Translations under genes and position numbers: made by a program
In this document: one piece after another, positions 6,238-37,601 of the stretch
Layout: the number at the start of each line of letters is the position of its first letter
How positions within the stretch are numbered: position 1 is the first letter of the stretch
Assembly: GCA_028286915.1 (NCBI GenBank)
Contig: JAQBQQ010000020.1
Coordinates: 1-38,511 of the forward strand
DNA: 38,511 nt
Direction of reading: 5' to 3'
Origin: Candidatus Peribacteria bacterium
GTDB lineage: Bacteria; Patescibacteriota; Gracilibacteria; Peribacterales; Peribacteraceae
The notes under the pieces: generated by a model
Told to the model about the DNA's origin: nothing
What the model saw: only the letters and a program-made list of their open reading frames with translations
Database searches by the model: none

Positions 6238-6245
6238 AACAGATG

Positions 6246-6320: not shown

Positions 6321-6362
6321 TCTTGCTGGCTCTTTCTCTGTATACTGCGTAATCTCTGCGTT

Positions 6363-6827: not shown

Positions 6828-6926
6828 TATTCTCGGTTATCTTCGTTTGAAAATGTGTTCGGAACGTTATAAAACAGCCACACATAGAGCATGACCGTTT
6901 TAATTTTTCATGATTGAAAATGCACT

Positions 6927-7361: not shown

Positions 7362-7388
7362 AGCTGGATGTGGGTAATTATTTTTTAT

Positions 7389-7417
7389 ATTATAAACTAT
7401 TATCTATATATAGTCAA
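7389..7417 (-). promoter_or_regulatory. Sigma-70-type promoter for the 7361 gene
   Basis: On the minus strand TTGACT (7417-7412) and TATAAT (7394-7389) are exactly 17 nt apart. The start point would be near 7382, about 20 nt before the ATG, with no Shine-Dalgarno in the leader. Confidence 0.75.
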
Positions 7418-7526
7418 ATACACAAACGTACGGGTATGCTTCGAAACAGGTTGTCGGTCAGACTAATTATCGTATACTGACGCGGCTTTATGGCTTTATG
7501 GCCACTTGGCAGAGATGCTCATTTTA

Positions 7527-22714: not shown

Positions 22715-25700
22715 TTATACTTTTTTGGAAGCGGTAACAGGAGTGTCCAATGTCTGAATAAGATATTCAACAGAAAGGAGTTCCTGTTTGTCTTTAAATG
22801 ATGTGATATCAAATTTTAACTGAGTGCCCCGGTCATAATATTCCTGGGGACTGGTTGTCGTTTCCACTTTAATCCGGTCCAGACTTGCCTGTAAATCCGC
22901 TGCTTCCGCTTCGCCTTTCTTCGCGACTAAAGCGGTTGCCTCGCGTTCAACAGCATTACGGAATGCCAGACTGGCTGTATAACGGGCCATATCTGCGCCG
23001 TCCGCGAACCAATTTCCCTGATTATATTTTTCAATCTGTCCGTTCAGGCGGTTAAGGTCATGGGACAGTTCTGTAATCAATGTGGCTTTTGCTATTTTTT
23101 TTGCATCGGTGTCATTGAGAGCAATAAGCACATTCATTTGTACGACTTTTTCTTCCGTTTCCTGCTTCATAAAGGACTGCACAGCCTTGCGACGTTCCGG
23201 AGCATGTACGGGCAGCTTGGCGTACTCAGCATAGGTAAGAGTTTTCTTTACGCCGTTTAATTGAAATTCCACAGTTTCTTTTTCATTTCCTTTGGCTCGT
23301 TCGGCCAGTCGTGCTGTGGCTTCCGCTTCACGGAAAATATCCGGCTGGAACGTGTCATAACGGCTGAATGTAATGTTACCGATATAGGCGAGGGCTGTTT
23401 GTACGAAAGTGGACTTACGTGCGTCGTAAGCTGGCTGGAGTTCCCCGGGCCTTCCCTGGTCCAGTTTTTCAAAATGTTTTTGGATAAGAGCACGGCAAAT
23501 TTCGTTGCGCGTATGTGTATTGCCATCCGCGACAGTGTCATAGGCTTTCTGGCTGTCATCTATAACACGGGCGGCAATAATTTCATCACCATGATTATGG
23601 GAGCCCGGCTTGAATTCCTCCAGCTTCGCAAACAGTTGTGATTCCGGCATTTTTGCCCAGTCATTGGCATTCATGCTCCATTTTTCCCGTGAGTATTCCA
23701 TTTCCTTCATGGCCCAAGCCGTTCCGCCGATAACAAGCCCGACCGGAAGCATGGCGACCATCACGCTGCCACCACCACCACCACCTGTAAAAATAGCGTA
23801 GCCCGTTGCGCCCAGTCCCACGGCACCACTTGCAGCTTCTGCCGCATGCATTTTGTTCATTTCAGCATATAGTTCTTTCAATTCAGGGTTATTTGTATCC
23901 TGAATGCGCTGGGTATTGGCTTTCCATTCCACGATAGCCATGGCGATACCGAATGCATCGGCACCGGCACTGAGTGTTGTTCCGGCAACACGCAGGCCGC
24001 TGGCAATTTTGGCAGCACGCAGTATTGCTTTTTCTGCATCAGCGCCTTTTGCCATAGCTCTCAGTAATGAAGCGCGGGCAATAGTGCTTTTCATGATTTT
24101 TTCCACCAATGCAGGGTCGGTACCCTTAAGCATGTCTGCTACTTCATCGGCATTTTTGCCCAGTCTGGCAGCTGCCTCCAGGAATTTTTCGCTGGCTTCG
24201 CCACTAGGCTTTAACTTTGCCGCTTCTGTCGCCATGTCGGCAGCGGTTGTACCGGTTTTCGCTGCATTTCCCGCTGTATCAGCAGCGTCAGCGGCCTTTG
24301 CTCCTGTCTTTGCCGCATCCGCAGCATCGTCGGCTACACCGGCTGCTTTGGCTGCGTCATCAGCTGAGCTTGCCGCCTTTGCAGCATCATCCGCGGCTCC
24401 CGCTGCGTTTCCGGCATTTCCTGCTGCGCTTGCACTTTCAGAAGCGGTTTCCGTAGTATTTGGTATTAATTTTACAAATTCCTCTGCAAAGGATTTTTTA
24501 TCTCGCATTCCCTTTGCTGTATTAATAATCTTTTTCACATAATCCGGGGCATTATCTGGAATATCTTTCACGGCAGCGAATGCATCATGAAGTTTATCTG
24601 ATAATTTCGTAATTTGATTTTCGAGTGTGAGTAATTCACTCTTGGAAAATCCCATTTGCCTTATGAGTTCATCGGGGCGCATTTTCATTTGCTCCAATGT
24701 GTTTCTAAGGACTATGAGTTTTTCTGTGGCTTCTACCAGTTCATCGGCATTGCCGATTTTTACCAGCGTCATTGCCTGACGCATTTGCCTTGCACGTGAA
24801 CCAATAATCGGCCATCCGCCTAGTTTATTGATAAAGACGGATTTCCCATCGCCTGAAAGGATGCCAAGTGTTTTTACACCGTCTATAAGCAGCATAATGG
24901 GCCAGCCAGCTGTTTTTCCGACAATACGTAGCACACTGCCTTTCATTCCATGGGAGAGAAGACCGGGGCTTCCGCGTAACAGAATACTCAGTGCAGCACT
25001 GTCCAGAACATATAAAACGCCGGCAGCACCATATACTTTTAATAAACTGCGTCCTTTGTATTCCTCGCCAAGAATATTTGCTTTGGCATAATTTAAAAGA
25101 TCACCGGCAATTTCCAGATGTTTACCGCCATACACCATAAAGGTTTTTCCTCCTTCTGTTATCACTCCTCCGCCGTGTTGGAGCAATTGTTCGAACGCTC
25201 CGCCTACATCGCCATCTGCAATACGTTCCCCAAAATTCCAGCCAGCTTTTACTGCCTCACTTACGGTATTGACGGCAGGCTTTGCTATATCGGCACTTGT
25301 TTTAATAGCTTCTGTACCTGCTTCAGCTGCACCGCTTGCAAGTGGTTTAACTGCCGCAATTCCCGTACCTGCTGCCGATGCAGCATCAGCCACTTGTTGC
25401 TTTAGATCGTCCAGGCTTTTAATAGAGCCTTTTACATATTTATTATAGACATAATATAATCCATAGCTGCCTGCAGCCAGGAGTCCCACCCCTGGAATCC
25501 ACGGCAGCCATTTCTTCCAGCCGGTTTCTTTTGGCTGATCTTTGACTCCCTCCTCTTTACCGCCGAACATCCATTTGAGTGCTTTGTATCCCAAATACAA
25601 TCCACCGACGGTCGCAGTGGCAACCACGGCTTTTTTCTGCCAAGACCAGCTGTTTATATCTTCCACTATTTCTGATCCTTTTGTTTTGGTCTTTTCCCAC

Positions 25701-26077
25701 AGCGTTGGTTCGGGCTTGAGGGCAACTGGTGCATTGGGTATACCGGATGTTTTTATGAGTTTCTCTCTATCTTCGTGAGCTTTGCGTAAATTATCTGCTG
25801 TCTGCTTTGTAACAAAACGCTCTTCCAAGTGCTGAAGATTTTTCTGAATAGCTACACGCTCAGCGGCGCTTATTTTGTCCAAATCCACACTGCTTCGTAG
25901 AGATTTTACTTCTTCAGATCTTTTGCTTTCCTCAATTTCCAAAACAAGGTTTTCCAGAAAAACAGGCGTGTTATCAGCTGCATGCTCTTTTAATTGTTCG
26001 GCAATACTTTTGGATACTTCCGGTACCACTTCAGGGCTTTTTGCCGGCTTGCCGTAGATAAGTCTGTGTTCGCGCAT
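22715..26077 (-). CDS. Giant helical membrane protein, about 1120 aa, function unknown
   Basis: No family is recognised. A charged coiled-coil-like N-terminus (about 1-140) is followed by two likely membrane helices (AVVATATVGGLYLGYKALKWMF and WIPGVGLLAAGSYGLYYVYN). A long middle part has two more hydrophobic stretches around YGAAGVLYVLDSAALSILL and GWPIMLLIDGV. Then comes an Ala/Asp-rich block of AADDAAKAA-type repeats, encoded by 24217-24456. After it another membrane pair flanks a Gly6 run, and a helical C-terminal region of about 330 residues closes the protein. I chose the ATG at 26077, 10 nt after the upstream stop; a GTG at 26119 would overlap that gene. It is the fourth gene of a five-gene leftward operon. 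A structural envelope role is a guess. Confidence 0.8.
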   Translation of the reverse strand: MREHRLIYGKPAKSPEVVPEVSKSIAEQLKEHAADNTPVFLENLVLEIEESKRSEEVKSLRSSVDLDKISAAERVAIQKNLQHLEERFVTKQTADNLRKAHEDREKLIKTSGIPNAPVALKPEPTLWEKTKTKGSEIVEDINSWSWQKKAVVATATVGGLYLGYKALKWMFGGKEEGVKDQPKETGWKKWLPWIPGVGLLAAGSYGLYYVYNKYVKGSIKSLDDLKQQVADAASAAGTGIAAVKPLASGAAEAGTEAIKTSADIAKPAVNTVSEAVKAGWNFGERIADGDVGGAFEQLLQHGGGVITEGGKTFMVYGGKHLEIAGDLLNYAKANILGEEYKGRSLLKVYGAAGVLYVLDSAALSILLRGSPGLLSHGMKGSVLRIVGKTAGWPIMLLIDGVKTLGILSGDGKSVFINKLGGWPIIGSRARQMRQAMTLVKIGNADELVEATEKLIVLRNTLEQMKMRPDELIRQMGFSKSELLTLENQITKLSDKLHDAFAAVKDIPDNAPDYVKKIINTAKGMRDKKSFAEEFVKLIPNTTETASESASAAGNAGNAAGAADDAAKAASSADDAAKAAGVADDAADAAKTGAKAADAADTAGNAAKTGTTAADMATEAAKLKPSGEASEKFLEAAARLGKNADEVADMLKGTDPALVEKIMKSTIARASLLRAMAKGADAEKAILRAAKIASGLRVAGTTLSAGADAFGIAMAIVEWKANTQRIQDTNNPELKELYAEMNKMHAAEAASGAVGLGATGYAIFTGGGGGGSVMVAMLPVGLVIGGTAWAMKEMEYSREKWSMNANDWAKMPESQLFAKLEEFKPGSHNHGDEIIAARVIDDSQKAYDTVADGNTHTRNEICRALIQKHFEKLDQGRPGELQPAYDARKSTFVQTALAYIGNITFSRYDTFQPDIFREAEATARLAERAKGNEKETVEFQLNGVKKTLTYAEYAKLPVHAPERRKAVQSFMKQETEEKVVQMNVLIALNDTDAKKIAKATLITELSHDLNRLNGQIEKYNQGNWFADGADMARYTASLAFRNAVEREATALVAKKGEAEAADLQASLDRIKVETTTSPQEYYDRGTQLKFDITSFKDKQELLSVEYLIQTLDTPVTASKKV

Positions 26078-26087
26078 AAAAAGGGAA

Positions 26088-26498
26088 TTAGGCGGCTTTG
26101 GAAAATGCTTTTTTTGCACTCAGATAAATTGCCCGCAGAGTTTTAAGAATCACCTCCACTGTTTTGCCCGCCAATGGGGGAATAAAGTCCGCAACATCGC
26201 TTAGTACCTGGGCCGTGCCATGAGTGAGTGCCAAAATGGCCTTGCGCGTTCCGCTGCGCTTATAAGACAGTCGTTCATACACACCTTCCTGCTCCAGAAT
26301 AGTCATAATTTCCGCTTTCTGTTCGTCGGTAAAACCGGAAAACATTCTGATTAATTCCAAGTTCAGTGTTTCCTGTAGTTCTGAATTCTTTTCACGTACA
26401 GCAATGTCCATTTGCCTGGAAAGAGTCCAGAATTTCTGCAAAAATTCAGGTGTTTTTTCTGTACCAGAATCGGCCGAAACGGAAAGTGTAGCATCCAT
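26088..26498 (-). CDS. Hypothetical helical protein, 136 aa
   Basis: Unrecognised. The protein is predicted all-helical: an N-terminal region with LQKFWTLSRQMDIAVREKNSELQETLNLELI, and a middle YKRSGTRKAILALTHGTAQVLSDVADFIPPLAGKTVEVILKTLRAIYLSAKKAF that is weakly hydrophobic and may be a membrane-associated hairpin around the two prolines. The start is 2 nt after the preceding stop. It is the third gene of the operon and so probably acts with the giant protein encoded next. Confidence 0.7.
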   Translation of the reverse strand: MDATLSVSADSGTEKTPEFLQKFWTLSRQMDIAVREKNSELQETLNLELIRMFSGFTDEQKAEIMTILEQEGVYERLSYKRSGTRKAILALTHGTAQVLSDVADFIPPLAGKTVEVILKTLRAIYLSAKKAFSKAA

Positions 26499-26500
26499 AA

Positions 26501-26779
26501 TTACACGGCATGACGTAACGTTAATCCAAATGCAGAACTTTTGGTTTCTATTGTCTGTAAATCCTTCCGCTGGTCCGGTGTAAGCCAGCGCTTGTACAGC
26601 GATGCGCGGTATTCCAGATTTTTCAATTTTTTATTCAGCGTTTCCATATCATCAATTTTCCCGTCTGCTTCTGCCTTATTGAATGCGGCTTCCAGTTTGT
26701 CGATTTCCTGTTTTAAAAGATTATACATAACCACGTGATCATGTTGGGATGGAGCCAGAGAAAGAGATTTATTTTTCAT
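26501..26779 (-). CDS. Small coiled-coil protein, 92 aa
   Basis: Residues 18-60 (MYNLLKQEIDKLEAAFNKAEADGKIDDMETLNKKLKNLEYRASLYKRWL) form a strong two-helix coiled-coil pattern broken at GKID. No signal peptide or known domain is seen. It sits between the 423-aa and 136-aa genes with gaps of 6 and 2 nt, so it is surely co-translated with them. A scaffold or chaperone-like partner is possible. Confidence 0.7.
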   Translation of the reverse strand: MKNKSLSLAPSQHDHVVMYNLLKQEIDKLEAAFNKAEADGKIDDMETLNKKLKNLEYRASLYKRWLTPDQRKDLQTIETKSSAFGLTLRHAV

Positions 26780-26785
26780 TATATA

Positions 26786-28057
26786 TTAACCAATATGAAT
26801 AATGCGTCCGTTTTTCATGGTCTGTGAAAATTTCTCATGGTTCATTAATTTTTCCATTACTTTTTTAATATCACTTTCTTCCAGAGTGACCTCCTCATGA
26901 CTAGCGGCATTGCCAATATCCATAACAATCGTATTACCCTGCTTTTTTGCCGTGCGGATAGTAAGATTCCATCTGCCTTTCCCCATTCCATCTGTAATTT
27001 CCAAGGCAATAGATTTCAATTCTCTTTTGCTCTTACTGTCGATTACAATGCCTCCTTGTACAAAGTTTATTTTTCCATCGCCAATGTTTATTGGCTCTGT
27101 TCTTCCTACCAGTTCACCGTCTGGAAAACTGGCAATAGCTCCCGGAATAATACTTGGGGCAACAATAGGATTGATTGCCGGTGCCGTAGAAGAAGTAAGA
27201 GGAAATTTCTTTGCGTACTCACTGGCCCGTAGTTTTACATCCTCCATAGTCGTCATGTCCGCTGGCCGCTTTAATGCCGGTCTTAGCCGTTTTTCCATTA
27301 TTTCCTCCAGCGTTTCTTCGTTATAGGAGGCATCGAGCGTGCGTCCTTCCTTTTTGGCATTTTCACGCAGCTGGGTTTTATTGAATTCAATATTCTGGTA
27401 CGTCAGCATGATCTCCTGGCAAATATTCTTGTCATGATCTTTGGCTGGGTTTCTCTGGAATTTTAACTCCTTGTCTGCTTCCATTATTTTATAGACTTCA
27501 TGCAGCTTGGCGCCCGGTGTTTCTGCCAAAAGTGAGAGTTTGGCTGCCCACTCGCCAAAACCCATAAAGGTTAATGCTGTGGCAATTCCTTTAATGGAAG
27601 ATGCACTCATGGAATTTATCCAGTCCTGGACTTTTTCAGAGACTTCTCCGAATTTCTCTATTGCAGTACTGAAAAAATCGGTCGCTCCTTTTTGCACTGT
27701 GTTTCCAGCCTTTTGAGTTAAATTTAAAACATTTGCATATTGCCCTTTGAAGCCTTCTTGAAATACGGCAATTCTTTGTGCAGCTTCCTGAAGCGCAGGA
27801 TTTTCTTGTACACTTGTATGCAGCGCCTCAATTGTTTGATGCAGTTGTTGAATTTGCTCAGCTGTTCCTTTTGTTACACTTTCTTTTGCCGCAACAAGTG
27901 CCGGCATAATTTCATTATTTATTAAATTTTTTGCGGGTTCAATTGTGCCTTCTTTTACGGCTTTAGTTACTCTTGCTTGCAGCTCTTGCAATGTTTGTAT
28001 GGCAACCTGTGGCGTGTTAGGCGCACTTGGCCCGGTAGATGGAGCATTAATTCCCAT
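26786..28057 (-). CDS. Hypothetical protein, 423 aa, first gene of operon
   Basis: Unrecognised. The first 20 residues are Pro/Thr-rich. Residues 20-150 are long amphipathic helices (LQELQARVTKAVKEG, EQIQQLHQTIEALHTSVQENPALQEAAQRIAVFQEGF) resembling tail-fibre, apolipoprotein-like or toxin-type coiled coils. A short hydrophobic patch follows at about 150-175. The C-terminal third is mixed: a strand-rich segment (GDGKINFVQGGIVIDSKSKRELKSIALEI, then GRWNLTIRTAKKQGNTIVMDI) may form a small beta domain before a final helix pair. A near-perfect promoter lies 20-55 nt upstream, so this gene starts the operon. Confidence 0.75.
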   Translation of the reverse strand: MGINAPSTGPSAPNTPQVAIQTLQELQARVTKAVKEGTIEPAKNLINNEIMPALVAAKESVTKGTAEQIQQLHQTIEALHTSVQENPALQEAAQRIAVFQEGFKGQYANVLNLTQKAGNTVQKGATDFFSTAIEKFGEVSEKVQDWINSMSASSIKGIATALTFMGFGEWAAKLSLLAETPGAKLHEVYKIMEADKELKFQRNPAKDHDKNICQEIMLTYQNIEFNKTQLRENAKKEGRTLDASYNEETLEEIMEKRLRPALKRPADMTTMEDVKLRASEYAKKFPLTSSTAPAINPIVAPSIIPGAIASFPDGELVGRTEPINIGDGKINFVQGGIVIDSKSKRELKSIALEITDGMGKGRWNLTIRTAKKQGNTIVMDIGNAASHEEVTLEESDIKKVMEKLMNHEKFSQTMKNGRIIHIG

Positions 28058-28083
28058 AAAGTTTTTTGTGTAGGTTTCTCAAA

Positions 28084-28112
28084 ATTATAGCAGAAAACAC
28101 TGTTTTTCTCAA
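28084..28112 (-). promoter_or_regulatory. Strong promoter of the leftward five-gene operon
   Basis: On the minus strand TTGAGA (28112-28107) and TATAAT (28089-28084) are 17 nt apart, with an extended TGC before the -10. Start would be near 28077, leaving a leader of about 20 nt without a Shine-Dalgarno. Confidence 0.8.
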
Positions 28113-28157
28113 GGTATGGGTTATAAACAGAGTTTTGGCGTCTAAACGTCTACTATG

Positions 28158-28166
28158 TGCTATGAT
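28158..28166 (+). promoter_or_regulatory. Extended -10 promoter of the hpf operon
   Basis: TGC-TATGAT gives an extended -10. Transcription would start near 28173, about 19 nt before the hpf ATG at 28192. It is back to back with the leftward promoter. Confidence 0.55.
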
Positions 28167-28191
28167 TCTAACCCTCTTCTCCCTCCCGGTT

Positions 28192-28593
28192 ATGAATGTT
28201 CAGCATTTTGAAAAAGGTATGGATTATACTGCTGATGAATTCCTCATTATGGCCCGTAAAATAGGTAAAATGGCTACGTACTGTAAGAAACTCACGGATC
28301 CCTCGTCTTTTATCCGGGTGGAAGCTGAACGCAGGTCTACCAAAAAGGAGCGTGACCAGGTAAAGGTGATGGTGACGGTGGAATTGCCGAAAAAGACCCT
28401 CCGCGCCGAATCCCGTCGTCCAACCGCGCTCGATGCCATCGACCGTTGCATGGAGAAGCTGGAACCGCAGATTAAGCGCTATAAAGAGAAGATGTCCGAC
28501 GACAACCGAATCGGAAACGGAAGAAAAGGATTCGCGTTCGGACGGAAAAGCAGGCCGTTTGCCATTACAACGGTCACCGATCGTGCTTCATGA
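28192..28593 (+). CDS. HPF/RaiA-type ribosome hibernation factor
   Basis: The start at 28192 gives MNVQHFEKGMDYTADEFLIMARKIGKMATYCKKL, the usual beta-alpha opening of the S30AE fold. Then come RVEAERRSTKKERDQVKVMVTVELPKKTLRAESRRPTALDAIDRCMEKLEPQIKRYKEK, with the conserved second-helix pattern AIDxxxxKLxxQIxxYK. Short HPF/RaiA proteins bind the 30S decoding region and silence ribosomes under stress. The C-terminal 30 residues are basic and lack the long-HPF dimerisation domain. Its stop overlaps the 7TM gene start (ATGA), so translation of the two is coupled. Confidence 0.85.
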   Translation: MNVQHFEKGMDYTADEFLIMARKIGKMATYCKKLTDPSSFIRVEAERRSTKKERDQVKVMVTVELPKKTLRAESRRPTALDAIDRCMEKLEPQIKRYKEKMSDDNRIGNGRKGFAFGRKSRPFAITTVTDRAS

Positions 28594-30116
28594 CATACTT
28601 TCTCTCACTTCTTGCCATTTTGGTCGCGCTGCCCTGCACTCCTCTTGCCTATGCGGCAACGGGGGACACGCTGCCGGTACCGCCTGTACAAGCGGTCATA
28701 GAAAGTCCAACGGACATTGCCGTCGGGCGCACAATGATTTTGACGGCATCGCGTAGTATAGTGCCAGCCGGTTTTACTGGAAAAACAGAGTATGAATGGC
28801 ATGTGGCTGACCAGACGGCGCCTATTAGCAATGTGGTGGATGCGGTATACACGCCGGAAAAGCCGGGCCGCATTATGTTTACGTTAACGGTTCGCCTTGT
28901 GACAAATGACGCTATTATTTCCCAGTCTACCGTCACAAAGGAAGTAGTTGCCTACAGGCGCAAGCTGGTACTGGTGACAGATCCCACTGTCTCCGCGCAG
29001 ATGACCGGTTTTCAGCGCGATGCCGCCGAACAGGCCGGGACATATCTGCAGATTTTACGGCTGCCGGACCCTGTTCTTATGCAGCAGAATTATGAACGGA
29101 CTGTGGCGTTTTTCTCGCAAAATTCCGCATCGCTCACCGATGCCAATGCCGTCATTCTATGGATGGATGGCGTGACGGGTTTGCAGGCCTACATGCAGGC
29201 GGCGCGCGCCAATGCGGACTGGATGGCGGCGGTACGGAAGCAGAGCATTCTGGTGGTGTCTTCTACAAATCTGCATACGCTTGCCCGGGCTGCCAACGGT
29301 CCGTTTTCGGTGCTCCGGCCGCAGCGCATTGTTCTCATTCGTCCGGAGGCGCTGCAGCCGTTGCTTCTGGCGCCAAGCATTACCGACTTCCTGGTTATTT
29401 CCCGCGAGCGCGGCTTGGACTACCTGGTACTGGATACCACTACCGTGGGTGTTCGTCCGTGGAATCTGCTTTCGTGGCTGGTGAATTACATGCTGGTGCA
29501 GGGCGTATCGTCGCAGACTATTGTGCTGCTGCTCATGCTGTCTGTCATCGCCACTATTCTGGCGTTTCTTAAGCAGGTGATCGGCGTGATTACGTTCGGC
29601 CTGTTTGCGCCGTCTATTATTGCGCTCAGCATGTTGGCGCTCGGCTGGTGGGTGGGGCTGCTCTTTCTTGTATTTATTATTACAACCGGTTACCTCACAC
29701 GCGCGGCCATGCAGCGCTGGCATCTGCTGTATATTCCCAAGGTGGCCATTATTCTCTCGGTGGTCAGTATTACGCTGCTTCTGCTCCTTGGCATAGGCGC
29801 GGCATTCGGCATTGTGCTGTCGCGCGACAGCGTGTTTATTCTGCTGATCCTCTCCACTCTTGGTGAAAGTTTCCTGACAGCCAAGACCGAGCAAGGCTTA
29901 AAAGGCGCTATTTTAAGCGTATCGCAGACCATCGGTTCCGCTCTGCTCTGCGTTATTATCGTCCAGTGGCCGGCCTTTCAGGCACTCATTCTGGCGTACC
30001 CCGAACTTATTCTACTTACCTTGCCGGTGAACTTCTTTCTGGGCCGTTGGACAGGGTTGCGGCTGGTGGAATATTTCCGGTTCCAGGAAGTGTTTAGACA
30101 CCTGTATGAAGAATAG
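28590..30116 (+). CDS. 7TM membrane protein with PKD-like exterior (UUP1/7TM_transglut type)
   Basis: The 508-aa protein opens with a signal peptide (cleaved near AYA-AT). An Ig/PKD-like domain follows at about 35-115 (SPTDIAVGRTMILTASRSI...YEWHVAD...YTPEKPGRIMFTLTVRL), then an alpha/beta exterior region to about 280. The C-terminal half has seven hydrophobic helices beginning LLSWLVNYMLVQGVSSQTIVLLLMLSVIATILAFLKQVIGVITFGLFAPSIIALSMLALGWW; LVQGV, GVITFG..AP and GESF are hallmarks of the 7TM domain usually fused to an inactive transglutaminase. Here the transglutaminase is replaced by the PKD-like part. Known partners of this family are ATP-grasp ligase-like, retropepsin-like and DUF1704 proteins, and all three are fused in the next long gene. 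Confidence 0.8.
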   Translation: MTYFLSLLAILVALPCTPLAYAATGDTLPVPPVQAVIESPTDIAVGRTMILTASRSIVPAGFTGKTEYEWHVADQTAPISNVVDAVYTPEKPGRIMFTLTVRLVTNDAIISQSTVTKEVVAYRRKLVLVTDPTVSAQMTGFQRDAAEQAGTYLQILRLPDPVLMQQNYERTVAFFSQNSASLTDANAVILWMDGVTGLQAYMQAARANADWMAAVRKQSILVVSSTNLHTLARAANGPFSVLRPQRIVLIRPEALQPLLLAPSITDFLVISRERGLDYLVLDTTTVGVRPWNLLSWLVNYMLVQGVSSQTIVLLLMLSVIATILAFLKQVIGVITFGLFAPSIIALSMLALGWWVGLLFLVFIITTGYLTRAAMQRWHLLYIPKVAIILSVVSITLLLLLGIGAAFGIVLSRDSVFILLILSTLGESFLTAKTEQGLKGAILSVSQTIGSALLCVIIVQWPAFQALILAYPELILLTLPVNFFLGRWTGLRLVEYFRFQEVFRHLYEE

Positions 30117-30139
30117 GGTTGGGGTTGGGGTTGGGGTTA
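30114..30139 (+). repeat. Family A repeat, left arm of four-helix cassette
   Basis: The run of GGGTT/GGGGTT units starts at the TAG stop of the 7TM gene and is inverted relative to 30510-30535, with 22 of 23 bases matching. Four consecutive G-tracts make it quadruplex-prone. Confidence 0.85.
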
Positions 30140-30148
30140 CTTAGCTTA

Positions 30149-30526
30149 ATGCATACTATGGAATCATTTACGAATCTTGCGGCCTGGAAGGAAGGTATGA
30201 AACTTGTAAAAGAGGTCTATCGTTTGACAGGTAAATTTCCCAAAGAAGAGGTATACGGATTAACATCGCAAATGAGACGGTCATCCTCCAGTGTATTGGC
30301 TAATTTTGCTGAAGGGTTCAGTCGTACATCGACTCCGGACAAGGCATATAAATATACAATTGCCAGAGGTGAATGTTCGGAGACAAAAGCTTTCTTGCTC
30401 ATTGCTATTGAGCTTGGATTTCTTGAGCCTGAAGAGGCCAAAGTGCCTATTGAACTCACTGATCATGTTGGACGTTTGTTGAGTGGCTTGATCAGTCGAT
30501 ATACAGCTTCCCAACCCCAACCCTAA
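30149..30526 (+). CDS. Four-helix bundle protein (S23/23S rRNA intervening-sequence type)
   Basis: The 125-aa protein matches the four-helix-bundle S23 family: FTNLAAWKEGMKLVKEVYRLTGKFPKEEVYGLTSQMRRSSSSVLANFAEGFSR, where the LAAWK opening, LTSQMRR and ANFAEG are diagnostic, followed by an E/K helix with RGECSETKAFLLIAIELGFL. First found in 23S rRNA intervening sequences, the family is common in CPR genomes and related in fold to the Avd protein of diversity-generating retroelements; function unknown. Start is ATG 30149 or 30158. Its last codons and TAA stop are made from the right-arm repeat. It sits inside the operon between the 7TM gene and its fusion partner, flanked by inverted repeats. 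Confidence 0.85.
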   Translation: MHTMESFTNLAAWKEGMKLVKEVYRLTGKFPKEEVYGLTSQMRRSSSSVLANFAEGFSRTSTPDKAYKYTIARGECSETKAFLLIAIELGFLEPEEAKVPIELTDHVGRLLSGLISRYTASQPQP

Positions 30527-30535
30527 CCCCAACCC
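30510..30535 (-). repeat. Family A repeat, right arm of four-helix cassette
   Basis: The C-rich complement of the left arm. It contains the last codons and TAA stop of the four-helix-bundle gene and ends 3 nt before the GTG start of the fusion gene. Confidence 0.85.
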
Positions 30536-30538
30536 TTC

Positions 30539-32977
30539 GTGCGTTTTCCCTTCTTCTCCAACCACGGCATTCTGGGTCTTAATGCGCGCAACTTGCTCTA
30601 CATTCGCCCGCATAACCCGCGGAAAGCGGTGGCATTTGCCGATGACAAATTGAAGACGAAAGCGTTTTTGTCGGCGCGCGGTATTCCGGTGGCGAAAATT
30701 TATGCCCGTATAGATAACCGTGAGCAATTGCGATCATTCGATTTTAGTGCATTGCCGGATGAATGCGTGCTCAAGCCCAATAACGGATTCGGCGGCGAGG
30801 GAATTATTCTGCTTAAAGGCCGCAAGAAGGGGCTGTTTTTGGATAACGGCAAAGAGCCTATTTCCACCAAGCGTCTTATAGAACATATTGAAGATATTCT
30901 GGATGGGAAGTTCTCGGTAAACGGCCGTGCGGACACGGCATTTTTTGAGCGGATTTTAAAGCCACATGAAGGCTTTGCTCCGTTTCGTCCGGCTGGTCTG
31001 CCGGACATTCGTATTATTGTCTTCAATCTGGTCCCGGTTATGGCCATGCTCCGGGTGCCGACTGCGGAGAGCAATGGTAAGGCGAATGTTCATCAGGGGG
31101 GCATTGGTATTGGTATCGATATTGCCAAAGGTGTTACCACTCATGCCACTCAGTACAACCGTGTCATCCGCGAATTACCGCATGGTATGCCGCCATCCGG
31201 CATTACGCTGCCGTTTTGGGAAGACCTGCTGCTCATTGCCTCGCGCATTCAGTACACTACCAATATTGGTTACCTGGCAGTGGATTTAACGATTGATGAA
31301 GAGCAGGGGCCGGTGCTGCTGGAGGTAAATGCCCGCGCCGGGCTTATGGTACAGGTAGCCAACCTGGCGCCGTTGCGTACGCGGCTCAATCGCGTGGAAG
31401 GATTGACGGTCACGTCACCGGAAAAAGGCGTGCGTCTGGCCCAGGATTTGTTCGGCCAGAAGGTGCAACGAACAGTGTACAGCGAGACGCGTCCGCAGCT
31501 GGGTACGCGTGAAACACTGCTTGTTCATGGCAGCAAAGAAAGCGTGGAAGTCTCTGCTTTGCTGGCTCCCGGCATGTTGGAACGGACGGTCTTTGCGCCG
31601 GATCTCATTGCCGAGTTGCGCGAGCTGGGTGGCGTGGAACAGGACGGCGTGGAGTCTATGTACCGTGTCAAATTTACGCTGGGCGGCAAGCGTTTGCAGA
31701 CAGTCGTGTACGAAGAAGTTCCACCGTTGCCGGGCGTTCGTGCCGTTATCGGTCGCCGGGATTTAACCGGTTTTCTTATTGATCCGTCCAAAAAAGAGAT
31801 TGTGCCTGTTGTTTTGCGGCGTAAATTGGATGTCCGGGCAGCCGACCGTCTCATTGGCCAGATGGACAGAGAGCTGATGATCCTCCGGCACGTAAAACCG
31901 CTGAATCTGCGCGAGGAGCGCAGGCGCATTGCCGAGGACCCGTTGTATAATCCACTTTTTCTGTATGCCGAATCGTCGGCCAACCTGGATGACAGTACCA
32001 AAAAACTGGAAGCCATCAGCCTGGATGATTCGCCCATGGGAACACTGCTCCAGAAGAAGCGGCGTGAGCTTTTCCTGCGGATGGAACTCATTCGTGCCCG
32101 CGGTGATGCCGAGCGCTTTACGCGCGCGTCCATTGCACTCTTTGGCGAGCCGGGTGAAGCGCTCACACGTGTTGCAGGCGAGCATTTCTTCGGCCGCACA
32201 GCGTGTGATATACCGCCACCGGCTTCGGCCTGGATGACGGCGGAGGAAACGGTTCCGCTGTTTGAACAGAGCTTGAAAGCCTATGGCCTGCACGACTGGC
32301 AGATCAGCGTGCGTGATACGCTGGTTGCCGATTGCACCGTTGGCTGGAAGCGGTTATACCTGCGCAGCGGCGCCCGCTTCGCGCCGGATCATGTATCGTC
32401 ACTGGTCGCCCATGAAGTGGAAACGCATATTCTGACTCTCGAGAATGGCAACCATCAGCCGTATGATTTATTCCGGCGCGGTTTTGCCGGCTATCTGGAT
32501 ACGCAGGAGGGGCTGGCGGTCTTTAACCAGAATCGTGTCCTTTCGCCGTATCATGAAAAACGTATCGGGCCGGCGCGCAGCGTCCTTGCGGTTGTCTATA
32601 GTCTGCATCATTCATTTGCCCGGACCCGCGCATACCTTACGGATACATTGGATTACACGCCGGAAAAGGCCATTACCAAAGCCATTGAGCTCAAGCGCGG
32701 CCTGAGTGACACGTCTGTGCCGGGCAGCTTTACCAAGGGCATTGTGTATTTCCGCGGGCTGCGCGCCATTGAGCGGTTTGTGGAGGGCGGGGGAGACATA
32801 CGGCGCCTGTATGTGGGCAAGGTGGCGCTGGAGGATATTGATCTGGCCGAACAGATTCCAGACTTAAAACCGCCGCTGTTTTTGCCGTCTTTCATGCGAT
32901 TAGCGGCTGCCGATCAGGTTGTTCGTACCGGCTCCAAAAAACAAAAAGATGATGAAGACCATGATGCGCATGAATGA
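30539..32977 (+). CDS. Fusion: ATP-grasp ligase + retropepsin-like + DUF1704/MATCAP peptidase
   Basis: The 812-aa protein joins three domains. Residues 1-305 are a RimK-like ATP-grasp (alpha-L-glutamate ligase-like): glycine loop FGGEGIILL at 84-92, and metal ligands in YLAVDL (Asp249) and LLEVNARAG (Glu262, Asn264). Residues 310-425 match the retropepsin-like RimB/ATP-dependent zinc protease family (RETLLVHGSKESVEVSALLAPGMLERTVF...VIGRRDLTGFLIDP), though the usual catalytic DTG is not evident. Residues 440-800 are DUF1704 (QEGLP-motif, MATCAP-like), with zinc site HEVETH (625-630) and QEGLA (656-660, Glu657 third ligand). In most bacteria these are separate genes. It suggests peptide tagging and removal with the upstream 7TM protein. 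Starts at GTG 30539 in the repeat's shadow. Confidence 0.85.
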   Translation: MRFPFFSNHGILGLNARNLLYIRPHNPRKAVAFADDKLKTKAFLSARGIPVAKIYARIDNREQLRSFDFSALPDECVLKPNNGFGGEGIILLKGRKKGLFLDNGKEPISTKRLIEHIEDILDGKFSVNGRADTAFFERILKPHEGFAPFRPAGLPDIRIIVFNLVPVMAMLRVPTAESNGKANVHQGGIGIGIDIAKGVTTHATQYNRVIRELPHGMPPSGITLPFWEDLLLIASRIQYTTNIGYLAVDLTIDEEQGPVLLEVNARAGLMVQVANLAPLRTRLNRVEGLTVTSPEKGVRLAQDLFGQKVQRTVYSETRPQLGTRETLLVHGSKESVEVSALLAPGMLERTVFAPDLIAELRELGGVEQDGVESMYRVKFTLGGKRLQTVVYEEVPPLPGVRAVIGRRDLTGFLIDPSKKEIVPVVLRRKLDVRAADRLIGQMDRELMILRHVKPLNLREERRRIAEDPLYNPLFLYAESSANLDDSTKKLEAISLDDSPMGTLLQKKRRELFLRMELIRARGDAERFTRASIALFGEPGEALTRVAGEHFFGRTACDIPPPASAWMTAEETVPLFEQSLKAYGLHDWQISVRDTLVADCTVGWKRLYLRSGARFAPDHVSSLVAHEVETHILTLENGNHQPYDLFRRGFAGYLDTQEGLAVFNQNRVLSPYHEKRIGPARSVLAVVYSLHHSFARTRAYLTDTLDYTPEKAITKAIELKRGLSDTSVPGSFTKGIVYFRGLRAIERFVEGGGDIRRLYVGKVALEDIDLAEQIPDLKPPLFLPSFMRLAAADQVVRTGSKKQKDDEDHDAHE

Positions 32978-33167
32978 TCATGAGTAACAAAGTGCACGTT
33001 ATAATCAGCTGCATTGTCAGCGGCACGGCGAGACATATGAGCATGGCGCTTCGCTTACTTGTGAGATAGGTGGAAGCAGGCCTATCCAGCGCAGACGGGT
33101 GCACCGGTTTGCCTTAATTTCACACACAGCGAAAAAGTTCACGCAACATTTCCTTTGTTCCGCGTTA

Positions 33168-33812
33168 TTACTCAGCTTCTTTTGGCTCGCTTCCTGCGGC
33201 AGGAGCGCCTTCGGCAGGAACAGCGGCGGCATCAGCCACTACTTCCGGCTCCACCTCCTCTGCGCGGGCTTCCTGAACGGTTGCCAGCACTGCTTCGGCA
33301 TCGTCCGTTACTTCCACGCCCTTCGGCAGCTTGATATCGCTTACATAGACGCTGGTGTGCAATTCCGTAAGGGTACTAATATCCACCACCAGTTCATGCG
33401 GCAGGTTGGCAGGCAGACACCTCACCGTTACTTCTTCCTGGGAGGCAATGAAAATACCACCAAGATCCTTGACGGCAGGCGCTTCGCCTTCAAACCGGAC
33501 AGGAACAGTAGTCTCAATCTCCTCTTTCATGTTTACGGCGTAGAAATCGGCATGCATGGCATGGCTGCTGACCGGGTGGAAACTGATTGCCTTAAAGAGA
33601 ACGGGGATTTTCTGTCCGTCCATCTGCAATTCTACCAGTGTGCTTTCGCCGGCCTTGGCAAATGTCTTGTGTAACAGCTTCATTTCGCACTGGATAGGCG
33701 TGTTTGTAACACTATTACCGTATACAACACACGGAATATGCCCTGCCTTGCGGAGCTGCTTGGGACTCTTGGATGTGTCCCGGGCCGTTACTGTTAAAGG
33801 AATAATGTCCAT
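33168..33812 (-). CDS. rplY: 50S ribosomal protein L25/Ctc
   Basis: The 214-aa protein has the two-domain L25 (TL5/Ctc) form. An N-terminal 5S rRNA-binding domain reads LTVTARDTSKSPKQLRKAGHIPCVVYG...TNTPIQCEMKLLHKTF, and a C-terminal beta domain reads VPVRFEGEAPAVKDLGGIFIASQEEVTVRCLPANLPHELVVDISTL. The last 40 residues are an acidic, alanine-rich tail (EEVEPEVVADAAAV), as in many long L25 proteins. It binds 5S rRNA in the large subunit. It converges with the fusion gene, 190 nt away, with no clear terminator in that gap. Confidence 0.93.
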   Translation of the reverse strand: MDIIPLTVTARDTSKSPKQLRKAGHIPCVVYGNSVTNTPIQCEMKLLHKTFAKAGESTLVELQMDGQKIPVLFKAISFHPVSSHAMHADFYAVNMKEEIETTVPVRFEGEAPAVKDLGGIFIASQEEVTVRCLPANLPHELVVDISTLTELHTSVYVSDIKLPKGVEVTDDAEAVLATVQEARAEEVEPEVVADAAAVPAEGAPAAGSEPKEAE

Positions 33813-33886
33813 GACGGGTGCAAAGGGTAAGGGAGGAACGAATACAGGTCAAGAGGTTAATAGATACAAAATATAGCCACTAGATT

Positions 33887-33980
33887 CGTTTATGGTTAGT
33901 TCGTTGGTTTGTTTATGGTTAATGGTTCTGTAAAACTTTCTAAACGATAAACGAACAAACTATTAACGAACAAACGAACG
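33887..33980. repeat. Family D inverted repeat (GTTCGTT/TTTGTTTA modules)
   Basis: The left arm at 33887-33927 is built of TTCGTT, GTTTGTTTATGGTTA modules. The right arm at 33941-33980 has the complementary AACGAACAAAC modules. The arms can pair imperfectly. The right arm encodes the last residues and TAA stop of the glycosyltransferase gene. Confidence 0.7.
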
Positions 33981-34787
33981 TCGCCATTTCCAAAAATATC
34001 TGGCCGCGCTTTTTAGGTGCTCCCTCACGGTCCATTTGGTAAAAATAGTTACAAAACCACCCTGGCTCAGGCGTAATTTACGGTCCGTTGCCTGGACATG
34101 AGGAAAGTATACAACGCGTTTTCCTGTCTGCCAGATTCGGCGGCAAAGGTCGGCATCTTCAAAGAAGAGGAAAAAGCGTTCATCAAATCCCTGTAATTCT
34201 TTAAAGAGTGTCCGTCGCATAAGAAAGCAGGCACCCACCACCCAGTCCACATCACGGGTTTTGGTGGGGTCTTCTTTGGAATGCAGATAGCGTTCCACGG
34301 AATCCCGGAAGAAGTGGCGCAGCAGTGTCCGCTTGATGAAGACGCCCCACACCGTAGGGAAACTGCGGGCGGACTCGCGGATGGAGCCGTCTTCATGCAC
34401 CAGCTTTGGCGCAAGAATTCCTATGGTTTCATCAGCCTCCATGGCATGGATCATTTTTTCCAGACCGTCCGGTTCCAGTTTGTTATCGGGATTGATGATC
34501 AAAAGATATTTTCCTGTCGCGTAGTTTTCACCCTTATTATTGCCGGCGCCGTAGCCGGTATTCAGGGGTTTTTCGATCATTCGCACCTTCGGTTCCTGCG
34601 AGAATGTATTTCTGATAATGCCGATGGAATCATCATCTGAATAATTATCAATAATTAGCACTTCCAGCTGATCCGCAATTGTTTGAGCCAGCAACGCCCG
34701 CACGCAGCCGACCGTCTCGCGCGGCGAGCGATAGTTGAGGACGAGGGCGGAGGCGATGTAAGGGTGCAAGGGGGACAAGAGGTACAA
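33963..34787 (-). CDS. Family 2 glycosyltransferase, rhamnosyltransferase-like
   Basis: The GT-A fold enzyme of 274 aa reads ALVLNYRSPRETVGCVRALLAQ, then VLIIDNYSDDDSIGII, NTGYGAGNNKG, the metal-binding INPDN, VDWVVGACFLMRRTLF and GFDERFFLFFEDADLCRRIW. This set marks WbbL/rhamnosyltransferase-like GT2 members that build surface polysaccharides. No ATG exists before the first conserved strand; the only starts in frame are TTG codons at 34787, 34778 and 34769, all lying within a family C repeat, so the native start may have been replaced by the repeat. Its stop comes from a family D repeat. Confidence 0.85.
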   Translation of the reverse strand: MYLLSPLHPYIASALVLNYRSPRETVGCVRALLAQTIADQLEVLIIDNYSDDDSIGIIRNTFSQEPKVRMIEKPLNTGYGAGNNKGENYATGKYLLIINPDNKLEPDGLEKMIHAMEADETIGILAPKLVHEDGSIRESARSFPTVWGVFIKRTLLRHFFRDSVERYLHSKEDPTKTRDVDWVVGACFLMRRTLFKELQGFDERFFLFFEDADLCRRIWQTGKRVVYFPHVQATDRKLRLSQGGFVTIFTKWTVREHLKSAARYFWKWRRSFVR

Positions 34788-34804
34788 GGGAAGCAGGGGA
34801 TTTA
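34766..34804 (+). repeat. Family C repeat, copy 1
   Basis: This 39-nt unit (core GGTACAAGGGAAGCAGGGG) is identical to 34851-34889. It overlaps the N-terminal codons of the glycosyltransferase gene. Confidence 0.9.
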
Positions 34805-34850
34805 GAGGATGGATGGACGAGGGCAGGATAGAAGAGAGAAAGAAGAGGAA

Positions 34851-34889
34851 GCAAGGGGGACAAGAGGTACAAGGGAAGCAGGGGATTTA
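34851..34889 (+). repeat. Family C repeat, copy 2 (left arm of second cassette)
   Basis: An exact 39-nt direct copy of 34766-34804, offset by 85 nt. It supplies the TAA stop of the four-helix-bundle gene at 34887 and is inverted relative to 35389-35427. A purine-rich 46-nt spacer separates the copies. Confidence 0.9.
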
Positions 34890-35252
34890 AGAGATTTGCA
34901 TTATTGATGATCGTAATTTGTGAAGTAAGTAGCCTACCCTATGAATAAGATTAATAAGAGAATCTTTGTTATCAGCTGTTATATATTCGAGGTCTGAAGC
35001 TAGTCTGCATTGATAATGGAGTTCTTCCAGTGAGCCAATGGCGATTATAACATAATGAGCCTTTTCTTTTTTGGATTGCCTGCCGTTTCCTTCCGCCAGA
35101 TTCATGGGAATGCTATAGCTCGCTCTTCTCATCTGACTGATCAGCCCAAACCGTTCATCGGATGGGAATTTCTTTGTGCTGCTATAAATTTGTAAACAAA
35201 GTTCATGTGCCAGTTGCCAGACTATCAATTTTTCATACGGTCGTTGTCTCAT
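34887..35252 (-). CDS. Four-helix bundle protein (S23 type), second copy
   Basis: The 121-aa protein shows the S23 signature clearly: YEKLIVWQLAHELCLQIYSSTKKFPSDERFGLISQMRRASYSIPMNLAEGNGRQSKKEKAHYVIIAIGSLEELHYQCRLASDLEYI. It shares LISQMRR and LAEG with the 30149 gene but differs enough to be another subfamily, so the two are not recent duplicates. The gene lies between family C repeats in inverted orientation and its stop is within the left repeat. A 14-bp hairpin terminator stands between its start and the right repeat. Function unknown. Confidence 0.88.
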   Translation of the reverse strand: MRQRPYEKLIVWQLAHELCLQIYSSTKKFPSDERFGLISQMRRASYSIPMNLAEGNGRQSKKEKAHYVIIAIGSLEELHYQCRLASDLEYITADNKDSLINLIHRVGYLLHKLRSSIMQIS

Positions 35253-35340
35253 GGCTCCATACTAAGTTTATTTTTTGTATTCTCGATTGGAAATAAATAA
35301 AATGTTCTATTGGCGTTCTTTATATGTCTTCTGTTTAACA

Positions 35341-35376
35341 AAAAATACGTTCCATGGCATCGTGGAACGTATTTTT
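35341..35376. terminator. Strong palindromic hairpin
   Basis: AAAAATACGTTCCA (35341-35354) pairs perfectly with TGGAACGTATTTTT (35363-35376) around an 8-nt loop. A and T runs on both ends allow termination in either direction; leftward it would end the pyrophosphatase transcript. A partial look-alike of the right half occurs at 12226-12239. Confidence 0.75.
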
Positions 35377-35388
35377 AAATCTTTTGTT

Positions 35389-35427
35389 TCCCCTGTACCC
35401 CCTGCTTCCCTTGAATCTCCTGATTCC
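35389..35427 (-). repeat. Family C repeat, inverted copy (right arm)
   Basis: On the minus strand it reads CAAGGGAAGCAGGGG followed by a GGTACAGGGG module. The 15-nt core matches copies 1 and 2 exactly. It abuts the TAG stop of the pyrophosphatase gene. Confidence 0.8.
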
Positions 35428-37601
35428 TACATAAAGAGTGCCGCCAACGCCAAGGTCAGCGTACTGAACAATTTAATGAGCACATGCAAACTTGGTCCTG
35501 CCGTATCTTTGAATGGATCGCCAACGGTGTCTCCGGTAACAGCTGCCTGGTGCGCAGGGGATTTCTTGCCGCCGTGGTAGCCTGTTTCAATCAGCTTTTT
35601 GGCATTGTCCCACGCGCCGCCGGAGTTGTTGAGGAAGGCAGCGAGCAATACGCCGGCAATGGTGCCGACCATCAGCAAACCGGCAACGGCTTCGGCTCCC
35701 AGAATAGTTCCGACAAGAATAGGCGCGGCAACGGCCACAATGCCCGGTAGAATCATTTCGTGGAGCGCGGACTTGGTGGCAATGTCCACGGCTGCGGCGT
35801 AATCAGGCTGGTCTGTGCCATCCATAATGCCTGTCTTCTCGCGGAACTGGCGGCGGACTTCCTCCACAATGACACCGGCGGCTTTGCCAACGGCGCGGAT
35901 AGTAAGCGAGGTGAAAAAGAATACTACCATGGCGCCAAAGAATGCGCCGACGAAGACCGGAATGGATGCCAGGTTTACCACCGTTAAATGTACTTCTTTT
36001 AAGTACGCGGAGAAGAGCAGGAAGGCGGCCAATGCGGCTGAGCCGACAGCATAACCTTTGGTGAGTGCCTTGGTGGTGTTGCCTGTGGCATCCAGCTCAT
36101 CCGTTACCGTGCGCAGTTCCTCCGGTGCGCCGGACATTTCCACAATGCCACCGGCGTTATCCGTAATAGGCCCGAACATATCCATGGCCAGGATGTAGCC
36201 AACCGTAGAAAGCATTCCCATAGTGGCAACAGCGGTTCCAAAGAGTCCGCCGTTTTCCAAACCTGTTTGTGTGCCCAGCCAGTTGGATAAGTAAAGTGCG
36301 ACACAAATAGTAAGGACGGTAAGCCCGGTTGATTCCATACCAACGGCAACGCCGGCAATAACGTTTGTTCCGTGTCCCGTGGTGGATGCATCCGCAATAC
36401 TTTTGACGGGGCGGAACTGCTTGCCGGTGTAGTAATCGGTTAAGTAGACGAACGCAACCGAGGTGGCGATGCCGACGAGACCGGCGCGGAAGAACCAATA
36501 TGAATCAATGGGTTTAACGTTCATGTATCCAGCTGGAAATGAAACATTAGGAACCAATAAATATTTAGTAGCAAAATATAAAACAATCACCATCAGAAGT
36601 GTCGTCACCCAGTAGCCGTTTTGCATAGATCGCATGGGTGTCTTGCCCGGCTTGGCTTTGACAAAGTACACACCAATGATGGTGGCAAAGAGTCCGGCGG
36701 TGGCGAGTGCCAGTGGGAAGAGCACGCCGTTAATACCGAAGGTCGGGAATAAGACAGCCCCCAGAATCATGGCGCCGATGTTTTCGGCGGAGATGGATTC
36801 AAACAAATCCGCACCGCGGCCGGCGCAGTCGCCTACGTTATCACCAACTAAATCCGCAATAACGGCCGGGTTACGTGGATCATCTTCCGGAATACCGGCT
36901 TCTATCTTCCCTACAAGATCAGCACCAACATCCGCTGCTTTGGTGTAAATTCCACCACCTAGTTGGGCAAACAGTGCCACGAACGATGCGCCGAATCCGT
37001 AACCGACGATGAGTTCTGGAATTTGCTCCGGCGGGACACCAAGTCCGTAGACGTAGAATAAGTACATGCCGGAGACACCCAGGATAGAGAGCGATGTAAT
37101 GACCAGAGCCGAAACAGTTCCGGCGCGCAGCGACATTTTAAGTGCGGCATCCATTCCGTTTTTGGCGACGGCGGCTGTTTTTAAATTCGCTTTTGTCGCG
37201 ACGACCATCGAAACAACGCCGGAGAGACCGGAAAGGAAAGCGCCGAGGAGAAAGGCGAGACCGACTTCGAGACCTTTTATCCAACTATCCATCGGATTTA
37301 ACGGAATACACTTAAATTGCCCTTCGAAGTCACCCATGTCTAAACGACATCTAGAGTGAATCAGTCCGGGTAATCCATAAGCTAATATTATTCCAATTCC
37401 CACAATCAGAGATAAAATGGTAATGGTTCTATATTGGCGCTTCATAAATGCACGGGCGCCGGTAGAAATGGCGGCGGCTACCTTTTGCATTTCGGGTGTG
37501 CCGTTGGGCGCGCGTTTTACTTCGGCCCAGAAGACCAGACTGTAGAGCAGCCCGACAATGGATAAAACCGGAATGAGAAATTCAAGCGTTGTGGTATCCA
37601 T
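35427..37601 (-). CDS. hppA: Membrane-bound proton-pumping pyrophosphatase, K+-independent type
   Basis: This integral membrane pump (724 aa from the ATG at 37601, about 16 helices) couples PPi hydrolysis to ion export. Catalytic loops are complete: [57 protein letters not shown], and [15 protein letters not shown] at the C-terminus. The loop [21 protein letters not shown] has Lys where K+-dependent enzymes have Ala, so K+ independence is expected. Proton rather than sodium transport is probable, not proven. The frame is open to 37760, but the added residues only translate a family B repeat, so I trimmed them. In a small genome it would conserve energy from biosynthetic PPi. Confidence 0.93.

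Follow-up and report, generated by a model that had tools for sequence, protein, structure and literature searches.

What does a bacterial protein act upon when a predicted amino acid ligase and a predicted carboxypeptidase are housed in one polypeptide, next to the gene of a membrane protein? The question is raised by a stretch of 38,511 nt of Candidatus Peribacteria DNA (contig JAQBQQ010000020.1, assembly GCA_028286915.1), hereafter called the window, where three genes lie on one strand: hpf (28192–28593), the gene of a seven-transmembrane (7TM) protein (28590–30116), and the gene of a fusion protein of 812 aa (30539–32977), made of a RimK-like ATP-grasp ligase, a retropepsin-like domain and a DUF1704/MATCAP peptidase. 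In loci in which MATCAP is fused to the ligase the retropepsin has mostly lost its catalytic motif, and the 7TM protein nearly always ends in two glutamates. A tentative answer is that the ligase would extend the tail of the 7TM protein, and MATCAP would trim it. The host genome measures 1.43 Mb, and its relatives are Candidatus Peribacteria and Peregrinibacteria (Patescibacteria), which are ultra-small bacteria.

Ligase and carboxypeptidase domains of the fusion protein

The fusion gene (30539–32977, plus strand) starts with GTG. Its domains were assigned by profile matches and by an AlphaFold2 model (49 homologues), in which the mean predicted local distance difference test score (pLDDT) is 90.9. 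The RimK/ArgX-like ATP-grasp domain spans residues 8–308 (30560–31462), and matches PF14397 at 1.5e-58 (residues 17–287). Residues 11–291 of the model resemble ArgX (Z 18.0) and RimK (Z 17.0), and residues K37, K41, K79, D156, R158, R172, K181, N183, D249, E262, N264 and R266 are conserved. The MATCAP (DUF1704/QEGLA) metallocarboxypeptidase-like domain spans residues 438–790 (31850–32908), and matches PF08014 at 2.9e-41 (residues 470–786), with 142 bits against a cut-off of 27. Curated cut-offs are passed by the PF14397 and PF08014 matches, as by the PF02482 and PF14402 matches of the two neighbouring proteins; the TIGR02291 match of the ligase (249 bits against a curated 314) and the TIGR02421 match (154 bits) are below theirs.

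Model residues 449–791 superpose on human MATCAP with Z 27.5 (284 residues aligned, root-mean-square deviation 2.7). The HExxxH zinc motif (H625 E626 V E T H630; 32411–32428) is invariant in 49 aligned fusions, and its HEVETH sequence aligns with HEIGTH of human MATCAP/KIAA0895L (TMCP1). The third zinc ligand, E657 (32507–32509), resides in QEGLA (656–660), is also invariant in the aligned fusions, and aligns with the TEEGLA glutamate of human MATCAP, taken as E316. Both E281 and E316 are required for the activity of TMCP1 (PMC10499314). Across a whole class, the active-site residues of both domains hardly vary. A sequence-only reading of the locus had assigned these two domains to the 812-aa protein, and had singled out loss of ATP-grasp or HExxxH residues in close relatives as telling against it; profiles and models bear out the assignment, and the residues are kept. 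No exported N-terminus is evident in the sequence of the fusion protein.

A retropepsin without its catalytic motif

The middle domain (residues 309–426; 31463–31816) gave no retropepsin match in direct Pfam and PDB profile searches, and was therefore linked to the fold through intact relatives. By profile-profile comparison (hhalign) it matches the retropepsin domain of unfused Patescibacterial ligase-retropepsin proteins (prob 99.8, E 5.6e-28); the latter match PF05618 in 42/42 cases, and the solved PF05618-type protein PDB 9g59 at 8e-12. The fold search used the whole fusion model, and is uninformative for this domain, which is the fastest-evolving part of the fusion.

Where the catalytic D[TS]G triplet would lie, the protein of the window has Ala-Pro-Gly (343–345; 31565–31573). 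In a tally of 118 loci the triplet is kept in all 40 loci without MATCAP, in 7/7 with MATCAP elsewhere in the locus, in 5/10 with an adjacent MATCAP gene, and in 6/61 fused proteins. The flap motif is missing in all of the 61 fused proteins. R116 and R139 are invariant in the intact Patescibacterial set but do not figure among the positions conserved in fused proteins; they appear to correspond to R114 and R137, the polyglutamate-binding residues of RloA (PMC12239564). Loss of triplet, flap and arginines makes it very likely that the middle domain is a pseudoprotease, and the remover would thus be the MATCAP domain alone. The domain described earlier as retropepsin-like is upheld as to fold, but carries APG for DTG. 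The suggestion that ligase and candidate remover share one polypeptide is similarly retained in part: the arrangement is class-wide with active-site residues in place, and only one of the two protease-like domains may qualify as remover.

The Glu-Glu end of the 7TM tail

The 7TM protein of the window has the C-terminal tail RFQEVFRHLYEE, with HLYEE as final residues. The two terminal glutamates, a proposed acceptor end which the sequence-only reading passed over, are encoded by GAA GAA followed by TAG (30108–30113, plus strand). Glutamate occupies the last two positions in 31/31 loci of the family to which the window belongs; in fused loci of other families it is found at the last position in 21/21, at the penultimate in 19/21. 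The tail measures 8–19 residues past an RF motif, and varies in length as in the residues preceding the pair, while the last two stay Glu.

A tally of 131 loci, grouped by MATCAP position and retropepsin state, shows with what the pair is associated. It was found in 58 of the 61 loci with a fused MATCAP, and in 8/9 with an adjacent separate MATCAP gene and a dead retropepsin. It is missing from all 6 loci with an adjacent MATCAP and an intact retropepsin, as from all 41 without MATCAP in the locus, and occurs in 1/14 with MATCAP elsewhere. As background, 1.3% of ordinary open reading frames end in two glutamates. Loci from other classes, collected later, agree with the pattern in 4/5 dead-retropepsin cases with operonic or fused MATCAP. 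By count the associations of retropepsin state and tail with MATCAP are strong (Fisher tests, 4e-23 and 5e-25), but these figures are too small because the loci share descent.

A pair of Glu codons can look like the ribosome-binding site of a following gene, and 7TM genes located elsewhere than immediately ahead of the fusion were therefore fetched. The prediction drawn from the pattern held in these: of nine, eight end in EE and one in EEV. The pattern is thus one at protein level. The pair also persists where the 7TM and fusion genes are separated by gaps of 80–450 nt, including one made by the insertion of an IVP gene, described in the last section.

In one locus (L230, genome G042) the 7TM tail is Glu-Glu-Val, one residue beyond Glu-Glu. 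Alpha-tubulin carries an extra Tyr after Glu-Glu, which is removed by carboxypeptidases, and the L230 tail may be likened to that.

Distribution and origins of the fusion

The fusion was matched in 47 of 59 relatives, and the triple fusion is class-wide in Peregrinibacteria, Peribacteria and relatives. In phylum-wide samples PF08014 is present in 86/380 genomes, PF14402 in 110/380. The common Patescibacterial layout is a 7TM gene followed by a ligase-retropepsin gene; MATCAP is a separate neighbour gene in some microorganisms, and is fused in the class of the window and a few others. The 7TM gene and the fusion are co-inherited: among 21 genomes checked, the 7TM gene resides in 8/8 with the fusion, mostly unlinked to it, and in 0/13 without.

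In the ligase-domain tree the fusion of L118/L119 lies apart from the main fusion, and a separate loss of the retropepsin, by Asp-to-Asn change, marks the clade L122/L123/L182–L184, where MATCAP is adjacent. Judged from the ligase sequences, the fusion arose twice independently.

Ligase, 7TM protein and retropepsin are separate genes in Proteobacteria (rloABC type). The one proteobacterial QEGLA/MATCAP gene examined lies beside genes for an N-formylglutamate amidohydrolase and a glutathione-synthetase-like ligase, with no 7TM gene. The sequence-only reading, in which all three parts are separate genes beside a 7TM gene in other bacteria, is accurate as to ligase and retropepsin, but not as to this MATCAP example; a separate MATCAP gene beside a 7TM gene was found within Patescibacteria.

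Some loci depart from these layouts. L121 (7411–10176) encodes a 922-aa protein in which ligase and intact retropepsin are followed by an apparent second ATP-grasp domain, another route of fusion; an 856-aa protein in L169 (3212 onwards) may be of the same type. In L074 (genome G013, 4926–7452) and in L058 (near residues 490–508) the fusion gene falls into two overlapping frames or is broken within its MATCAP portion, as could result from a frameshift, a sequencing error or a real split gene. Genomes of the f38 type (L185–L188, L259, L261) feature a short 7TM protein without exterior and a ligase-retropepsin whose active site is of the FMDTG[VI] type; their MATCAP gene is located a few kb off on the opposite strand, a looser form of the link.

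A possible glutamylation cycle, and other explanations

Given the fusion, the dead retropepsin and the Glu-Glu tail, the simplest reading is a 7TM tail lengthened by the ligase and shortened by MATCAP. The ATP-grasp domain, of RimK/ArgX type, would add at least one amino acid, most likely glutamate, at the carboxyl end of the Glu-Glu tail. Within the same protein, MATCAP would take the added residues off again, as TMCP/MATCAP enzymes, which are deglutamylases, shorten polyglutamate chains on tubulin (PMC10499314). The retropepsin, trimmer in RimB/RloA-type systems, would have been displaced by MATCAP, and would persist, without activity, to link the two enzymes or hold them in place. The exterior of the 7TM protein would have a sensing or binding role at the cell surface, by which the balance of tagging would be set. 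We infer both activities, the identity of the added residue, the tail as acceptor and the role in sensing; the domains, the conservation and loss of active sites, the association of the genes, and the Glu-Glu pattern with its independence of gene distance were observed. A membrane-anchored, reversible C-terminal glutamylation of the 7TM tail, with MATCAP having replaced the aspartic protease, is a reading to which we give chances just short of even.

Several points weigh against it. Adjacent to MATCAP, L241 has HTG in place of the triplet and a tail ending in ER; L251, with NTG and MATCAP elsewhere, ends in ND. The tail is NE in L118 and QE in L070, and the unlinked 7TM protein of L073 ends in EEV. 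Conversely, L147 combines an EE tail with an intact DTG. The six fused proteins that retain D[TS]G all lack the flap. Because the Glu-Glu tail is missing from loci with an intact retropepsin, the modified target is probably something else there. An amino acid different from Glu might be the one added. The number of independent origins is about three, too few for a tree-based paired or sign test to reach significance. Finally, the Glu-Glu pair could serve as a docking signal rather than as acceptor.

The last point is part of a broader alternative, in which ligase and MATCAP act on another cytosolic protein or a free peptide, the 7TM protein anchors or exports, and Glu-Glu is a docking tag. RimK produces poly-alpha-Glu in free form, besides acting on a soluble protein (PMC11957791), and RloB and RloC of Pseudomonas jointly make something that RloA must remove, the acceptor being not known (PMC12239564); a conserved C-terminal Glu pair fits a docking motif too. 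Yet docking leaves unexplained why the pair tracks the carboxypeptidase when every locus has the ligase, and no candidate soluble acceptor was found, ribosomal protein S6 of the relatives ending in an ISDDxLxL-type sequence with or without the system. We consider the docking alternative rather unlikely.

The homology of the PF14402 and ATP-grasp proteins to RloB and RloC allows a second alternative, an envelope-stress system resembling rlo, where the ligase product is carried across the membrane by the 7TM protein and is processed by MATCAP before export. In Pseudomonas, deletion of rloB or rloC suppresses the loss of the secreted RloA (PMC12239564). Neither a secreted retropepsin nor a PF14400 exterior was found, however, in profile searches of the window and its relatives; the catalytic domains are all fused, and so lie on one side of the membrane, and the Glu-Glu tail is left unexplained. 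Such an export system seems improbable here.

Fusion and tail pattern might also be accidents of lineage, namely a single inherited fusion, an unused retropepsin that drifts, and an acidic tail fixed by descent. Most fused loci do fall in one clade, and independent origins are few. On the other side, tail length and the residues preceding the pair vary widely while the last two remain Glu; the fusion appears to have arisen twice, and Glu-Glu recurs in the unfused clade L122/L123/L182–L184/L238–L240. The probability that descent explains the pattern is low, much as for export. The weakest explanation, that the Glu-Glu codons (GAAGAA, GAGGAA) are a mere Shine-Dalgarno site for the fusion gene with no role at the protein level, as the 12–35 nt between 7TM stop and fusion start in most loci and the likeness to GGAGG-type sites would allow, is largely refuted by the distant 7TM genes and the large gaps described above, fails to account for the lack of EE in the loci without MATCAP although a ligase-retropepsin gene directly follows the 7TM gene, and is very improbable.

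Reversible glutamylation of the 7TM tail may be placed in a wider frame. The system would then mirror, at a bacterial membrane, the cycle of tubulin glutamylation, with a C-terminal glutamate ligase and a MATCAP deglutamylase in one polypeptide serving the tail of a 7TM surface sensor, the metallocarboxypeptidase having replaced the aspartic protease at least twice, and a Glu-Glu acceptor tail having evolved each time. This is possible, and is proposed with more doubt than hope. Systems of the rlo type affect osmotic tolerance, biofilms and antibiotic response in Pseudomonas (PMC12239564). For these 7TM/ATP-grasp systems, the acceptor of which is so far not known, the cytosolic C-terminus of the 7TM protein itself is a concrete candidate. 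The pattern also suggests a route by which one protease partner was exchanged for another during evolution, and gives the MATCAP family, familiar from its action on tubulin, a possible part in a self-contained bacterial cycle of addition and removal.

Comparison with known systems

The closest known operon is rloABC of Pseudomonas aeruginosa (PMC12239564); the gene order in Legionella adelaidensis is the same. Common to rlo and to the window are a PF14402 7TM protein beside a RimK-like PF14397 ATP-grasp protein, and a retropepsin of the PF05618 family. The rlo 7TM protein has an inactive transglutaminase exterior (PF14400), that of the window a PKD and a Rossmann-like domain. The rlo retropepsin is separate, secreted and endowed with the catalytic Asp; the one in the window is inactive, with APG for DTG, and is cytosolic because fused to the ligase. 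The window system adds the MATCAP carboxypeptidase, by fusion, and the Glu-Glu tail.

RloA and RimB are polyglutamate-cleaving enzymes, and RimK attaches Glu at a C-terminus (PMC12239564, PMC11957791, PMC10092738). RimK/RimB and RimBK (PMC11957791) share with the window a RimK-fold ligase associated with a retropepsin, and RimBK is a precedent for ligase and protease in one polypeptide. RimBK has an active N-terminal retropepsin and acts on ribosomal S6 (PMC11957791). In the window a dead retropepsin comes after the ligase and before a metallocarboxypeptidase; a membrane partner is present, and the S6 of relatives carries no Glu tail. The tubulin carboxypeptidases MATCAP/TMCP (KIAA0895L, KIAA0895; PMC10499314) have in common with the window domain the fold and the HExxxH...E metal site. 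They act on C-terminal residues and polyglutamate; the window domain is bacterial and ligase-fused, with no tubulin partner known.

Nearest of all are unfused Patescibacterial operons of the form 7TM / ligase-retropepsin / (MATCAP), as in L112–L114, L120, L122–L123 and L139. The same three parts lie side by side, but MATCAP is a separate gene, and the retropepsin is intact save in the L122-type clade. Ligase-protease fusions (RimBK) and 7TM-ligase-retropepsin operons (rlo) are thus already known. Three features are new to our knowledge, and were not found in the literature searched: the fusion of MATCAP to a protein whose retropepsin has been inactivated, the exterior of PKD and Rossmann-like domains, and the Glu-Glu end as candidate acceptor; a search on MATCAP/QEGLA with ligases in Patescibacteria returned nothing relevant.

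The exterior of the 7TM protein

The 7TM protein (508 aa; 28590–30116, plus strand) matches PF14402 at 1.6e-21 (residues 307–501), as the sequence-only reading of a 7TM gene just upstream of the fusion leads one to expect. A signal peptide-like N-terminus is followed by a PKD domain (30–123), a Rossmann-like domain (124–287), the 7TM region (~293–486) and a cytosolic C-terminal tail. In the AlphaFold2 model (pLDDT 89.8) the PKD domain resembles the ColG PKD domain 4tn9 (Z 12.9), and the Rossmann-like domain gives Z of about 10. PF14402 is matched by 46/46 7TM relatives, and PF14400 is listed for 0/46 at E<=0.01; Legionella RloB, as positive comparison, matches PF14400 at 1.1e-44. A PKD-like exterior replacing the inactive transglutaminase, as first described, is therefore correct but incomplete, the Rossmann-like domain having been missed.

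The hpf gene and the ribosome

The gene upstream of the 7TM gene (28192–28593, plus strand, ATG at 28192) encodes an HPF/YfiA-like ribosome hibernation factor (PF02482, E 5.8e-10). Its coupling to the 7TM gene by an ATGA overlap (28590–28593) was verified in the window. Among family loci with at least 1.3 kb of upstream sequence, hpf lies upstream on the same strand in 23/28, and so is not unique to this contig; no hpf was found near the fusion in loci of other families, and the association is one of a single family. The overlap is present in just a few family loci. Confinement to one family and rarity of the overlap leave the hint of ribosome-linked tagging poorly backed, and a ribosome link of the tagging system is weakly supported.

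Ribosomal S6, on which RimK acts, was considered as target, and is disfavoured by the sequences of relatives. In these its C-terminus, usually of the ISDDxLxL type, has no Glu tail, and is alike in genomes with or without the system. S6 genes of the class (L204–L228) encode a long charged extension, mostly with this conserved end. Ribosomal L25 was discarded as target, its C-terminal sequence being variable.

IVS-like elements and neighbouring genes

Four adjoining genes of unknown family (1134, 136, 92 and 423 aa) lie on the minus strand at 22715–28057, divergent from hpf. A family-profile search with the 423-aa protein gave no match above curated cut-off. An Rfam search of 26500–35500 gave zero matches.

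The interval between the 7TM and fusion genes, unmentioned in the sequence-only reading, is filled by an inserted element of 420 nt (30115–30536, plus strand), similar to an intervening sequence (IVS). It encodes a four-helix-bundle protein of the 23S-IVP type (PF05635, 1.8e-32), and is bounded by 24-nt inverted repeats of GGGTTGGGG type, with arms 96% complementary. The predicted fold has -150.8 kcal/mol (z -3.4). The same site is filled in four genomes (window, L038, L054, L061), with related repeats. The 23S IVS of Coxiella measures 444 nt, with 28 bp and -143 kcal/mol (PMC4990558). The window element resembles 23S rRNA IVSs in the IVP/S23 reading frame inside terminal inverted repeats and in size (~0.4 kb, as in Coxiella) and fold, but sits between protein genes rather than in a 23S rRNA gene. 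Extra copies of a GGGTTGGGGTTAGGG repeat were seen at window positions 2852–2868 and at C37:1864–1886, no IVP gene being seen alongside.

The host genome (G000) has five 23S-IVP-type genes (L199–L203, on contigs C9, C14, C40 and C26, one of them at window 34887–35252). All five are flanked by inverted repeats of 21–34 nt, unrelated in sequence, and in some cases only 79–81% complementary. In a stricter repeat scan 5/9 distinct IVP genes score at least 15, against 2/600 random stretches, and these may represent a wider class of IVS-like elements located outside rRNA.

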